From contig NZ_JAEUFG010000004.1 in assembly GCF_018588585.1 (NCBI RefSeq), positions 62,001 to 126,000 of the forward strand: DNA of 64,000 bases, read 5' to 3'. Made by a program: the position numbers and the translations under genes. This stretch comes from Bacillus sp. SM2101 (GTDB lineage Bacteria > Bacillota > Bacilli > Bacillales > SM2101). This document shows, piece by piece, positions 8,357 to 45,303 of the stretch (positions are counted from its first letter, which is position 1; the number at the start of each line of letters is the position of its first letter). The notes below the pieces were generated by a model. The model had not been told where the DNA came from. It ran no database searches and saw only the letters and a list, made by a program, of their open reading frames with translations.

Positions 8357-8830
8357 TAAAGCTCTATTCATAAACTTTGCTGCTATTGTTATTAGTTAAG
8401 GCTCTTTTCGTATATTTTGTTGCTTATATTATTAATTTAGGACAATAAAATAAGATATTCGGTATCATCGTATAAATTAGAAAAGAAAAGATGCCACGAA
8501 CTAGCATGAAATACGTGTTTATATTCTATGTACGAAAAACAACTATTGGTTTGAAAACGAAGTTGAAAAAGGCTCTTTTCGTTTACTTGTTGCTTATATG
8601 ATTAATTTAGGACAATAAAATATGGGTATCATCGTATAAATTAGAAAAGAAAAGATGCCACGAACTAGCTTGAAATACGTGTTTAATTTCTATGTACGAA
8701 AAGCAACTATTAGTTGAGAACGAAGTTGAAAAAGGCTCTTTTCGTATATTTTGTTGCTTGTATTATTAAATTAGAACAACAAAATAAAACATAAGATGGC
8801 ATCGTATAGAGAAAAATAAAAGATGCCAAC
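8357..8830 (-). repeat. Tandem array of TIR repeats
   Basis: A partial copy from 8357 and three nearly full copies begin at 8398, 8569 and 8732 (periods 171 and 163 bp). Each opens AAGGCTCTTTTCGTATATTT or a close variant, then TGTTGCTT. The first two full copies carry the core GAAAAGATGCCACGAACTAG; the third has the variant GATGCCAACGACAC. Copies 1 and 2 end with TACGAAAA(A/G)CAACTATT and GAAGTTGAAAAAGG, where the next copy starts. It occupies most of the gap between yugJ and yuzA. The remaining part (8174-8356) holds nothing I recognise. Confidence 0.88.
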
Positions 8831-8949
8831 GACACCTGTATATCCAATACAAGTGCAAACAGTCAAATAAAAAAATTAAAGATCATGAATATTTTTCCTT
8901 ATATATGCCAAAATATATATTAATTAAGATAAAAAGGAGGCAACATATT

Positions 8950-9183
8950 ATGGGTACTATGCAACGAATCGCACTTGTTTTTACTATTATTGGGGCTATA
9001 AATTGGGGGCTAATTGGATTTTTTCAATTCGACTTAGTTGGAGCAATCTTTAATGGACAAGGTTCCGCTCTTTCAAGAATTATTTTTGGTATCGTTGGAA
9101 TTGCAGGCCTCATTAATTTAGGGATATTATTCAAGCCTACTGAGGAATTTGGAACAAGTACCGAGCCTAGAACGACTAGATGA
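8950..9183 (+). CDS. yuzA: YuzA, DUF378 small membrane protein
   Basis: A 77-residue protein with two hydrophobic helices. It begins MGTMQRIALVFTIIGAINWG, followed by LIGFFQFDLVGAIF and then IIFGIVGIAGLINLGILF. The GAINWGLIGFFQFDLV stretch is the hallmark of DUF378. The function is unknown. The ATG was chosen because AAAGGAGG lies 10-11 nt upstream; an in-frame ATG 15 codons earlier would add residues from the ribosome-site region. The gene is followed by a very strong terminator and sits between yugJ and yugI as in B. subtilis. Confidence 0.9.
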   Translation: MGTMQRIALVFTIIGAINWGLIGFFQFDLVGAIFNGQGSALSRIIFGIVGIAGLINLGILFKPTEEFGTSTEPRTTR

Positions 9184-40438: not shown

Positions 40439-40478
40439 TTGAATAACATACAACAATCCACAATACCCCAGTAAAACC

Positions 40479-40508
40479 ACTGTATAGGAGAGCTCCTATA
40501 CAGTTTTT
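40479..40508 (+). terminator. Terminator of the haloperoxidase-like gene
   Basis: A perfect stem ACTGTATAGGAG / CTCCTATACAGT with a 2-nt gap at the tip, then TTTTA. Confidence 0.92.
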
Positions 40509-40518
40509 ATGTAAATAT

Positions 40519-40547
40519 TGTGGATATTGTGAATAAACTGTGGATAA
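40519..40547 (-). promoter_or_regulatory. DnaA-box module A (three boxes)
   Basis: Read on the plus strand: TGTGGATAT (40519), TGTGAATAA (40528), 2 nt, TGTGGATAA (40539). In the DnaA-box sense these are ATATCCACA, TTATTCACA and TTATCCACA; the last is the perfect consensus, the second fits TTATNCACA, and the first differs at the end position only. Spacing is 9, 9 and 11 nt, all in one orientation. Confidence 0.75.
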
Positions 40548-40849
40548 AACTGTTAAAAAGTTAACTCTTTTGATAAATACTAGGCAAAGTAAATGAACTA
40601 AGATGTGACAGATTCATCAAAAGGTTTTACCATCTTAGACTTTATTAATGAATTTTCTATATATTAATAATTTTTATTAATAATTATCTATATTCTTTTT
40701 CCCTTCAAAAAGTTATATTGATGCTGTTTTTGTGCCACTTCAATATCTTTATGTATGAATAATAATGCTATTGATGAGCTTTGAGAATATATTAGTTCCG
40801 TAGAAAGGTTGAATTTCATTATACATTCTCAATATATATTTTTTAAAGC

Positions 40850-40878
40850 TGTGGACATTGTGTGTAAACTGTGGATAA
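40850..40878 (-). promoter_or_regulatory. DnaA-box module B (three boxes)
   Basis: Read on the plus strand: TGTGGACAT (40850), TGTGTGTAA (40859), 2 nt, TGTGGATAA (40870). The third is a perfect DnaA box; the first two are degenerate. The layout and the following AATTGTTAATAACTT-like flank copy module A, 331 bp to its left. Between the modules the DNA is very AT-rich (40548-40849) and has no gene. Confidence 0.65.
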
Positions 40879-40947
40879 AATTGTTAATAACTTCAACCTG
40901 CTAAAGGATAGCGTCGGCAGCTTAGGGTAAATATTTACTTTACCTTT

Positions 40948-41076
40948 TATACAAATGTGTTCACATTAATTATTATTTTTCGTAAATAGAGCTAAATACT
41001 ACTATAAAAATCATATTTCACACCAGTTACCCAAATGTAGGTGATAAAAAGCAGCAAAGTTTACAAAAAGAGCCTT
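40948..41076 (+). repeat. TIR repeat, plus orientation
   Basis: Left end TGTTCACATTAATTATTATT then TTTCGTAAATAG, right end GCAGCAAAGTTTACAAAAAG then AGCCTTT. The core is not recognisable. It ends 100 bp before the glycosyltransferase stop codon. Confidence 0.75.
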
Positions 41077-41176
41077 TAAATAATATCAATATATTCAATG
41101 AGAACAAAAGAGTGTAGTAAATACCTTTCTCTACACTCCAAGGATGAATTTTTTTTTTGTGGTTAAGAGTTACTTA

Positions 41177-42886
41177 TTACACTGATAGTTTATTAATTTG
41201 ATAAATGTATTCAGGATACGATACTGCATCTCCTAAAACGGACATATTCCAAGTAGCTGTTTCATTTGAATTTTTGTTCTCAAGAAGTTTTTTTAGAAAA
41301 TATATTTCAGAGAAGTGCGTATCTTGAAATGAATGGTTTCTTAATTTCTTTTTTGCTTCAAATCTCCTTTGAAGGCGGTATAAACATAATAACATCCAAC
41401 GAAAGTATATTGCTTGAAGCTGGGGATCCTTCGTTTCATCATATAGCGAAGTAAAGTCCTTTAATGCTTCTTCAAACTCTCTTTCAATAAAAGGACGATA
41501 CCCTTTATGATTGACAAATATTTCATTATTATCGGATTGAACTGGACTATAGCAAATATCTTCAACATGATTTTGTATATTTTTATGGTATGCGACGACT
41601 TCCCAACGAGCAATTTTTAAGGAGCTATCAATTTCGTATACGACTGGAACTTTTATTACAGATGCTTTTGTTATATTTAATAGTTTAAGAAATTTAATGT
41701 AATCGCTTGGATTAATAAATGCATCTTCTGAAATTCCTATGTTCCAATCTTCCTCTGTATGTTGTCGCTTTACTTTAAATGATGCAACCTTCTTATAATA
41801 ATCATAAATTTCATCTATAGTCACATGCCATTTAAATTGCTTGGCGGTAGAAAGTCCATTCGTTATAAGTAAATCAACTAATTCATCGTCATCTAGCACT
41901 TTTTTGATTTTACTAGTTAAGTCTATCGGATCCCTAATTCTACATACTAGAACATTCTCTCGGTCAATAGCATATTCTAGTACGCCATCATTTTCCGTCG
42001 TAACGACAGGACAACCACAAGACATGGCTTCTAATGGTGGAAGAGAAAAGCTTTCATAATGAGACGCAGATACATATAATCTCGCACCTCTATATAAATC
42101 TGCGATTGTACTTTGACTAGGTTGAACGAAGGCTTTTGTAACCTTATTTCTCATGTCGTTTGACGGCTCCTCAGGCGTTATCCAAAACAACGATATATCG
42201 TATTCTTGTTGAATGACTTGATACGCTTCAATAATTTCACGTATACCTTTAAAAGAGGCAGATTCTGCACCCACCATTAGCATATACCGCTTCTCTGATT
42301 TGAATGAAGAACTTCCATCGTAAAAGATGCTTTCATCTATTGCGTTATGAATGACACTTGCTTCTCGACCATAGTTTTTATTAATTAATTTAGCTGCATT
42401 TTTCGATACTGTATATATAAATGTTGGCAGTTCATATTGACGTTTAATAAATACCTTTAACGCGTCATTCATACTTTCATAATCAAACAAGTGAAAGTCA
42501 CCTTGTTCAAAATAAACAACTGGCGCAATACCTGTGTCTATACAGGATTGAATATGATCCCAGTAGGTTGCAACAATAACATCACAATTTGGTATTCCTT
42601 TTGCTAATTCGATCGTAAATGGAACTTGTATATAGGTAGCATCAATTGGATACCAATGAGGTTTTTCAAAATGTGTCACAATTGTAACTTTAATGCCAAG
42701 GCGTGTTAAACGATTAACATGCTCAAAAATAATTTTTACTCCCCCACTTACAGCTACACTAGACATCACATAAACGATATGAAATGAGTCTTCGGTTTTG
42801 TCCTTTTGGCATAAGACCTGTTTTTCAGACATGTGTTGTTGAGCTAATCGCTTGTTAAATTCTTTTAATTTTAGTTCTTCGTACAT
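41177..42886 (-). CDS. GT4-family glycosyltransferase with C-terminal helical extension
   Basis: A 569-residue protein. A GT-B fold of the GT4 type spans about residues 35-370. The Rossmann start is YVMSSVAVSGGVKIIFEHVN, the donor domain starts MLMVGAESASFKGI, and the EX7E-type nucleotide-sugar site is YESFSLPPLEAMSCGCPVV. The last 150 residues are helical and end in a TPR-like segment. I chose the ATG with AAGGAGG 5 nt upstream; the longer open frame runs into the divergent gene. It faces away from the GT2 gene and sits close to a collagen-like gene, which suggests spore-surface glycan synthesis (inference). Confidence 0.9.
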   Translation of the reverse strand: MYEELKLKEFNKRLAQQHMSEKQVLCQKDKTEDSFHIVYVMSSVAVSGGVKIIFEHVNRLTRLGIKVTIVTHFEKPHWYPIDATYIQVPFTIELAKGIPNCDVIVATYWDHIQSCIDTGIAPVVYFEQGDFHLFDYESMNDALKVFIKRQYELPTFIYTVSKNAAKLINKNYGREASVIHNAIDESIFYDGSSSFKSEKRYMLMVGAESASFKGIREIIEAYQVIQQEYDISLFWITPEEPSNDMRNKVTKAFVQPSQSTIADLYRGARLYVSASHYESFSLPPLEAMSCGCPVVTTENDGVLEYAIDRENVLVCRIRDPIDLTSKIKKVLDDDELVDLLITNGLSTAKQFKWHVTIDEIYDYYKKVASFKVKRQHTEEDWNIGISEDAFINPSDYIKFLKLLNITKASVIKVPVVYEIDSSLKIARWEVVAYHKNIQNHVEDICYSPVQSDNNEIFVNHKGYRPFIEREFEEALKDFTSLYDETKDPQLQAIYFRWMLLCLYRLQRRFEAKKKLRNHSFQDTHFSEIYFLKKLLENKNSNETATWNMSVLGDAVSYPEYIYQINKLSV

Positions 42887-43043
42887 ACTAGCCTCCTTAC
42901 ATATAGTTGATGAAAAATTATATTTCGTATGATCTATCATATTAGTAAAAATGATAAGGGTGTTGTCTTGAGGCTCAAAGATCACGTAAGAATACTGCAA
43001 ACATATTATGTTGTATTGATAAATCAAAACAGGAGGGCGATCT

Positions 43044-44150
43044 GTGGTTACAATCAGTTTATGTATGATCGTTAAAGATGAAGAACAAACACTTGAGAAT
43101 TGTTTAATCAGTGTCAAGGACGCTTGTGAGGAAATCATTATTGTGGACACTGGATCTACAGATAAAACGAAAGAAATCGCTTCAAAATATACAGACAAAA
43201 TCATTGATTATGAATGGATTGATGATTTTGCTGATGCAAGAAACTTTGCTTTTAGCCATGCTACTAAAGAATACATCCTTTGGTTAGATGCAGATGATGT
43301 GGTTCATCAAGAAGATTTAAAAAAATTATTACAGCTTAAACAGACACTTGACGAGTCTATAGATGCTGTATCTATGATCTACAATATCGCCTTTGATGAG
43401 TATGGGAATCCAACGTTTAGTTATAGAAGAAATCGTTTAGTAAAACGAGTAAATCAGTTTAAGTGGTTCGGAGTTGTGCATGAGTATTTATCAGTATCAG
43501 GAAATACTATACAATCAGATATTGCGATCAGTCACCATAAGCATCTAAAGAAGAATGATGTGAGTGAAGGTAGGAATCTAAGAATCTATGAAAACCGTAT
43601 TAAAAAAGGGGAAAACTTTACTCCGAGAGATTTGTATTACTATGCTAATGAGTTAAAAGATCACCAGTTCTACAATAAAGCCATTAGTTATTATGAGGAA
43701 TTTTTAGCTACTGAAGAAGGTTGGATAGAGGATGAAATTAGGGCTTGTCTTAATTTAGCTGACTGTTATATCCACTTTGGAGACAAAGATGAAGAATTGA
43801 ACGCTTTATTAAAATCGTTAAAGTATGACTATCCACGTCCAGAAATTTGCTGTCGTTTAGGGAGCTACTTCATGGAAAAGAATGCTTATGAAACAGCAAC
43901 ATTTTGGTTTCACACAGCTCTTCATAAAAGAGATACAAATACCGACGGATTTCAACAACCTGCATACTCTACTTGGTTTCCTCATTTGCAATTATGTGTA
44001 TGCTATTGGAATTTAGGTGATGTAGATCAGTCTATAAAACATAATAAGGAGGCTGAGAAATACCGTCCGAATGATGAAAGTGTAACATATAATAACAAAT
44101 TCTTTTCAGAATACATGAAGGAAAATACAGCTAAACATATAGATGGATAG
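43044..44150 (+). CDS. GT2-family glycosyltransferase with TPR-like tail
   Basis: A 368-residue protein. The GT2 (GT-A) domain at about residues 1-200 has ISLCMIVKDEEQTLENCL, the VDTGSTDKTKEIA signature and the DADD metal motif in ILWLDADDVV. The rest is TPR-like helices (YNKAISYYEEFLATEEGWIE and HNKEAEKYRPNDESV). The layout resembles SunS/SPBc2-type glycosyltransferases that modify proteins. The start is GTG with CAGGAGGGC 6-7 nt upstream. It lies divergent to the GT4 gene and about 560 bp before the collagen-like gene, its likely substrate (inference). Confidence 0.9.
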   Translation: MVTISLCMIVKDEEQTLENCLISVKDACEEIIIVDTGSTDKTKEIASKYTDKIIDYEWIDDFADARNFAFSHATKEYILWLDADDVVHQEDLKKLLQLKQTLDESIDAVSMIYNIAFDEYGNPTFSYRRNRLVKRVNQFKWFGVVHEYLSVSGNTIQSDIAISHHKHLKKNDVSEGRNLRIYENRIKKGENFTPRDLYYYANELKDHQFYNKAISYYEEFLATEEGWIEDEIRACLNLADCYIHFGDKDEELNALLKSLKYDYPRPEICCRLGSYFMEKNAYETATFWFHTALHKRDTNTDGFQQPAYSTWFPHLQLCVCYWNLGDVDQSIKHNKEAEKYRPNDESVTYNNKFFSEYMKENTAKHIDG

Positions 44151-44555: not shown

Positions 44556-44712
44556 AACAAATTTAAAAACCCCATCAAAAATTATTAGTTAAGTTCTGTT
44601 TATATGCCTTTTTTTAAGTCATGCAAGCCTTTTTAAGTAAGAATATGGATATTACACCCAACCAATTTTATAAAACGAGCATAAATATAAATAGAATAAG
44701 GAGGTGTCAAGA

Positions 44713-45303
44713 ATGTATAATTACGATGAAGATTGCACGTGTAGAGTCGTTCCACAACCAAAACCTGGACCACAAGGACCTCCAGGAAAACCTGGACCAC
44801 AAGGACCAATGGGTGCTACGGGCGCTATGGGTCCCACTGGTGCTACTGGGATGACTGGTGCTACTGGGATGACTGGTGCTACTGGAATGACTGGTGCTAC
44901 TGGGATGGGTCCGACGACGATATTTTTAGGTACAGACCAATCACTCTCCCCTCCATTCCAGAATTTTATAGGGTTAGGTATAACAGGTACTTTTGAACAA
45001 ACTGCTGTAGCTGTACCGCGGGCTGCTACTACTATAGAACTTACATTTAGCGTGAAGCGCGGTAATGTTTTAAACATTAACCAAACGGCAACTGCTAACG
45101 TTTTTATGGATAACATGTGTACCGGTGCCCCTCAACAGCCCCCTCTCGTTTCTGTTCAGATAACTGGTGATGGTAGTACTTGTTGTGCTTCTGCTATGGC
45201 TCCTGTTACTCTTATGGGATGTGAATCTCTATCCGTACAAATTGATATAGGTGCTGGTGGCAACCTAACCAATGGTGTTGCTGCAACTATCACATTGACC
45301 TAA
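44713..45303 (+). CDS. Collagen-like (exosporium-type) surface protein
   Basis: A 196-residue protein. The N-terminal segment [20 protein letters not shown] has two Cys. About 16 Gly-X-Y triplets follow (residues 19-66), first [16 protein letters not shown], then GATGMT repeats. A beta-rich C-terminal domain of about 130 residues ends in [10 protein letters not shown]. Thr in GAT and GMT triplets is the usual site of O-glycosylation in BclA-like spore-surface proteins. The ATG has GGAGGTG 6-7 nt upstream; an upstream GTG overlaps that site. The N terminus is not the BclA/BclB type. The C-terminal domain resembles a BclA-like trimerisation domain only in size. Confidence 0.88.
44839..44909 (+). 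repeat. 18-bp tandem repeat in the collagen-like gene
   Basis: Nearly four copies of GGTGCTACTGGGATGACT, one of them with a single G-to-A change, code for the GATGMT units. It keeps the frame, so copy number may vary between strains. Confidence 0.9.

Follow-up and report, generated by a model that had tools for sequence, protein, structure and literature searches.

A probable genus-specific cluster of DnaA boxes outside oriC in Bacillus sp. SM2101

We analyzed a 64,000-nt stretch of the Bacillus sp. SM2101 genome (hereafter the window) and found, in a gene-free gap between two converging genes, two modules of three head-to-tail DnaA boxes each. Our reading is that this locus is probably a genus-specific DnaA-box cluster (DBC) of the Bacillus subtilis type lying outside oriC, which would bind DnaA cooperatively and act as a minor sink for the initiator. 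Judged from the sequence, binding of DnaA at the locus is very likely and titration of DnaA by it is plausible. The kind of element is probably one already known, namely the DnaA-box clusters of B. subtilis, of which the locus would be a further, lineage-specific example. Less usual is the fixed triad of boxes, reused behind terminators in one genus and found once in a prophage.

Results

Two modules of three DnaA boxes in one non-coding gap

The original prediction placed two modules with the pattern box-box-2 nt-box at positions 40519 and 40850 of the window, and their coordinates, minus-strand orientation and identical spacing were all confirmed (Table 1), as were the perfect DnaA box in third place of both modules and the second perfect box of module A. 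The two modules have equal orientation, with box starts at +9 and then +11. Boxes 2 and 3 of module A form a "double DnaA box" with a 2-bp gap, according to the spacing rule described for this element (PMC11317965); the Escherichia coli arrangement of two head-to-tail boxes 2–3 bp apart is thus found at boxes 2/3 of both A and B. Module B had been presented as an equal copy. It does show the same pattern and spacing, yet its first two boxes carry 2 and 1 mismatches to TTATNCACA, which makes it clearly weaker than module A. The flanks are similar, as predicted: in the alignment of A and B, 41 of 48 columns match and the likeness extends beyond the boxes, and therefore the two modules look like a local duplication. 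The random background drawn for these alignments does not serve as a null for every pair, as some draws overlapped the query. The proposal that the module was duplicated or is kept by selection agrees with this apparent local duplication, but there is more to it than that, since the triad occurs also at two other loci of the genome.

Table 1. Positions of the locus, its boxes, related DnaA-box clusters and further triad copies. Positions without a prefix are those of the window; C and L prefixes denote contigs and loci; G000, Bacillus sp. SM2101; G001, sister species. Mismatches are to TTATNCACA.
Feature	Position	Strand	Details
PAP2 superfamily protein gene (upstream), 294 aa	39554..40438	+	ends 80 bp before module A
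Gap between 3′ ends of PAP2-family and glycosyltransferase genes	40439-41176		738 bp, non-coding
Intrinsic terminator hairpin	40479..40504	+	11 pairs then TTTTT; PAP2 gene 3′ end; -15.1 kcal/mol
Module A	40519-40547	- (all boxes)	mismatches 1, 0, 0
Module A box 1, ATATCCACA	40519..40527	-	1 mismatch; identical in G001
Module A box 2, TTATTCACA	40528..40536	-	perfect
Module A box 3, TTATCCACA	40539..40547	-	perfect
Spacer between modules	40557..40849		74% identical in G000 vs. G001, indels; no conserved ORF
Module B	40850-40878	- (all boxes)	mismatches 2, 1, 0
Module B box 1, ATGTCCACA	40850..40858	-	2 mismatches; ATATCCACA in G001
Module B box 2, TTACACACA	40859..40867	-	1 mismatch; changed in G001
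Module B box 3, TTATCCACA	40870..40878	-	perfect; kept in G001
Extra weak box 3′ of module B, TTATTAACA	40882..40890	-	1 mismatch; kept in G001
Group 1 glycosyltransferase gene (convergent)	41177..43204	-	
Close pair upstream of dnaA (oriC)	C12:13652		
Close pair upstream of trmE/mnmE	C12:16761		MnmE family model
Close pair upstream of yydA/rlmH	C12:51746		RlmH family model
Close pair upstream of ywlC	C3:196313		threonylcarbamoyladenylate synthase family model
Close pair upstream of yqeG (yqeG/sda region)	C1:376415		YqeG family model
Close pair at present locus	C4:102528		
Close pair inside ORF read by eye as hemD	C6:45222		no match in sister species
gcp/ydiF-type convergent cluster	L113:4287-4457; L114:7803-7973		eight to nine boxes
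Triad copy, G000	C4:38191-38219 (L137; L094 about 18191)		prophage
Triad copy, G000	C14:31871-31899 (L139)		3′ of YVTN-repeat gene
Triad copy, G001	C6:38796-38824 (L136)		orthologous to C14 copy

The terminator of the PAP2 gene lies 14 nt ahead of module A. On the other side of the gap, the true start of the glycosyltransferase gene probably lies further inside its reading frame, because the orthologue in G001 has 570 aa. The locus had been described as lying beside yumC, with no cluster reported there. yumC is indeed not mentioned in the main text of the published map of DnaA binding in B. subtilis (PMC4447404), but "beside yumC" is a loose description, as the direct neighbors are the PAP2 and glycosyltransferase genes.

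The locus is situated on contig C4, while dnaA and oriC are on contig C12 of an assembly in 144 contigs, in agreement with the predicted position away from oriC. GC skew is uniformly negative across contig C4, and the locus is therefore within one replichore. A plasmid or phage origin of the locus was rejected, as neither a Rep nor a phage gene adjoins it; a search of plasmid and phage collections with the whole gap gave no match. Further along the window, positions 44704-45303 encode a collagen-like protein with GPQGP and GATGMT repeats.

The locus ranks with the conserved DnaA-box clusters of the same genome

The genome-wide search for clusters recommended with the original prediction was performed with a criterion of two strict TTATNCACA boxes at most 30 nt apart. 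Only seven places in the 5.2-Mb genome were recovered, and the present locus is one of them (Table 1). Besides oriC, the places at trmE, yydA, ywlC and yqeG/sda are orthologues of DnaA-binding regions mapped in B. subtilis (PMC4447404), and the site in hemD is probably due to chance. A fifth known cluster, gcp/ydiF, is kept in both species as an eight-box cluster between tsaD (gcp; TIGR03723) and a convergent ABC-F gene, the product of which fits ydiF by position. The summed box score of modules A and B (5 + 4 = 9) falls among the values for the known-type clusters of the genome (5–10). The locus is thus on a par with the conserved clusters of B. subtilis type that this genome contains. GGRDHTTVIHAHEK, the motif that reads DnaA boxes, is present in the DnaA of the host.

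Conservation in the sister species and box order outside the genus

Conservation was assessed in one sister genome of the same genus and family, G001, in which the region is about 92% identical, so that the comparison has little depth. Both modules are in place there, so that they are not missing from this close relative. Module A with its flanks is identical at 38 of 38 positions, vs. 74% in the spacer, although this is confounded by the terminator and gene end before it, which are 96% identical. For module B the identity is 84%, vs. 89% for the flank 3′ of it. Conservation therefore sets module A apart from the spacer but does not set module B apart from that flank. Elsewhere in the order, 297 genomes lacked the 38-bp module at up to 3 mismatches and 395 lacked the 29-bp triad at up to 1 mismatch. 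No box cluster was found beside the PAP2 gene at the loci of 56 of its relatives, which are at most 65% identical and of which just one has a yumC homologue near, so that the position is tested only weakly by this comparison.

A pattern that fixed the spacing only gave eight matches in the 395 other genomes. G143, which belongs to another family, has one of these matches between ywlC and spoIIR (names read by eye), with the sequence TTATGCACA-AC-TTATCCACA-ATATCCACC; the box-box-2 nt-box architecture therefore occurs in a known cluster type of another family. A second match (G265) falls in intergenic DNA rich in boxes. The remaining six come from a single genus (family f11) and were not counted; those inspected lie inside the hisD coding sequence. 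Five or six DnaA boxes are packed in the hisD coding sequence in several genomes from a genus of this order other than the present one (L156, L158, and L159, near 1439-1582). In the viral collection the exact triad pattern was absent; the loose pattern was present in four viral contigs with unrelated flanks.

Triads behind intrinsic terminators

Further copies of the triad were found within the genus (Table 1). The copy on C14 and its orthologue on C6 of G001 are located downstream of a gene whose product contains YVTN-like repeats and was judged by eye to be a beta-propeller; the boxes are intact in both species, and the DNA 3′ of the triad diverges. The copy at C4:38191 lies within a stretch of about 40 kb that is missing from G001. 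This stretch encodes terminase large and small subunits and an integrase-like ORF, on account of which it is read as a prophage. The terminase has just distant relatives, at about 25% identity, and no triad was seen in the flanks of relatives of the phage protein adjoining the prophage triad.

Triad A, C4:38191 and C14:31871 each lie 5–14 nt behind a predicted intrinsic terminator, with the same orientation. A count of TGTGGATA at up to 40 nt behind a predicted terminator gave 8 cases in about 816 kb vs. 1.2 expected; six of these eight cases are the three triads counted twice, and the independent evidence therefore amounts to three sites plus two.

This arrangement is the basis of the main rival to our reading, in which DnaA-bound triads behind a terminator would form a transcription roadblock that stops residual read-through out of the PAP2 gene before it runs into the convergent glycosyltransferase gene. 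The recurrence at three sites is consistent with it, and datA of E. coli offers a precedent, where DnaA binding and a terminator/attenuator jointly limit read-through transcription (PMC10950094). Yet module B has no terminator ahead of it, and at C14 the next gene runs in the same direction several hundred base pairs on, so that convergence is not general. Terminators are moreover common in gaps that tolerate such arrays, and most of the other DnaA clusters are located upstream of genes. We consider the roadblock quite unlikely as the explanation of the locus.

The further copies also bear on the idea that a small repeat or mobile element carrying DnaA boxes left the triad behind as a relic, its positions being without function. 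G000 has four copies of the 29-bp triad, of which one is in a prophage that could have moved it, and the C4:38191 and C14 copies have terminator and triad in common over about 60 bp, which may point to a separate origin of their own. The likeness of A and B to these copies is confined to the triad, however, and both species have intact boxes in A and in the C14 copy, which would not be expected of a decaying relic, though the divergence is small. On balance, a relic has only a small chance of being the right account.

A bolder extension of the cluster reading would be that the genus uses the fixed box-box-2 nt-box module behind intrinsic terminators as a standard insulated unit for holding DnaA, and that a temperate phage carries it to draw on or sense the host initiator. 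At present we regard this as unlikely, if somewhat less so than the roadblock.

Content of the gap and chance expectation

A further alternative is that the gap hides a small RNA or a short gene whose transcription DnaA would control, as at sda. In B. subtilis, DnaA represses or activates several genes adjoining its clusters (PMC4447404), and the part of the gap at about 40890-41080 is about 90% identical between the species. Against this, the predicted region of about 740 bp without a gene proved to be 738 bp with no ATG/GTG/TTG ORF longer than 43 aa, and none of its small ORFs is recognizably kept in G001. A search of the gap against Rfam returned no family, and its single sub-threshold microRNA match was dismissed as chance; promoter-like sites are at the level of shuffled sequence (8 vs. 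6.4). Both flanking genes end at the gap, and positions 41056-41075 belong to a dispersed repeat. Control of a hidden transcript is in our judgment even less credible than the relic.

The dispersed repeat contains GCTCTTTTYGTAAACTTT and has one copy inside the gap. We counted 13 copies in about 750 kb, corresponding to about 90 per genome if evenly distributed, and it was seen also in L008 near 8475-9020. It may represent a MITE or an IS end.

To set the box pattern against chance expectation, we simulated 12 genomes of 5.2 Mb each (62 Mb) with an order-3 Markov model built on this genome. When up to 3 mismatches are allowed, the triad pattern has four matches in the real 5.2-Mb genome and none in the 12 simulated ones, and the reversed-pattern control gave none in either G000 or G001. 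Strict boxes paired closely in the same orientation were expected 0.17 times per simulated genome and found at three places; pairs in opposite orientation were absent from the simulation and present in the real genome at oriC and five further places. The locus thus holds several DnaA boxes packed well beyond chance, in an intergenic position outside oriC. Chance matches in AT-rich DNA, a reading to which only the single TTATNCACA boxes of the window lend themselves (4 observed vs. 5.2 expected, i.e., no enrichment), have a virtually nil probability, being refuted by the triad-free simulation, the empty reversed-pattern control and the modules kept in place in the sister species.

Discussion

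Proposed role of the locus

As a DnaA-box cluster of the B. subtilis type, the locus would function in the following way. DnaA would bind each module as a head-to-tail array, in which boxes 2 and 3, two base pairs apart, would act as the cooperative "double DnaA box" and box 1 would lengthen the array. In E. coli, DnaA mainly binds pairs of boxes 2–3 bp apart (PMC11317965). Occupancy is to be expected for module A and less firmly for module B. About 330 bp separate the two arrays, which are situated in non-coding DNA flanked by converging genes, and the stronger array directly follows a terminator. Together they would probably serve to hold a small pool of DnaA and thereby delay initiation a little, in addition to the conserved clusters at trmE, yydA, ywlC, yqeG/sda and gcp/ydiF. 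In B. subtilis, deletion of six clusters outside oriC leads to early initiation, strongly only when all six are gone, and one cluster returned at various places partly restores the timing (PMC5295017).

Should DnaA bind here, the lineage would possess at least one cluster in addition to the conserved set of B. subtilis type, which would show that the set of initiator sinks is able to expand through short modules. With its strict spacing and its copies behind terminators, the triad is a simple, testable design for cooperative DnaA binding, and the prophage triad raises the question whether phages tap host initiation control. The locus alone is a modest addition to a known phenomenon.

Comparison with known systems

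E. coli datA resembles the locus in being a non-coding DnaA-box locus with a terminator next to the boxes (PMC10950094), and it has a negative effect on initiation. It differs in that datA needs IHF and promotes ATP hydrolysis; B. subtilis is without homologues of IHF and Hda (PMC13220808). The E. coli double DnaA box has the same two head-to-tail boxes 2 bp apart (PMC11317965), whereas here a third box abuts them with a gap of 0 bp, giving a triad, and both the organism and the DnaA are different.

The likeness to the six B. subtilis DBCs lies in box density and intergenic setting. Orthologues of those at trmE, yydA, ywlC, yqeG/sda and gcp/ydiF are all present in this genome, while the locus itself does not figure in the regions published for B. 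subtilis, and this genus is the only one in which it was found. From the gcp/ydiF cluster it differs in the number and arrangement of boxes, as 10 sites are listed in B. subtilis vs. three good and three to four weak boxes in two spaced modules here, and in its place at the PAP2 and glycosyltransferase genes, the gcp/ydiF cluster being separately present in this genome. In B. subtilis that cluster is a high-affinity region for ATP-DnaA in vitro (PMC4447404), and the present locus shares with it a non-coding position between converging genes, several boxes and a location away from oriC.
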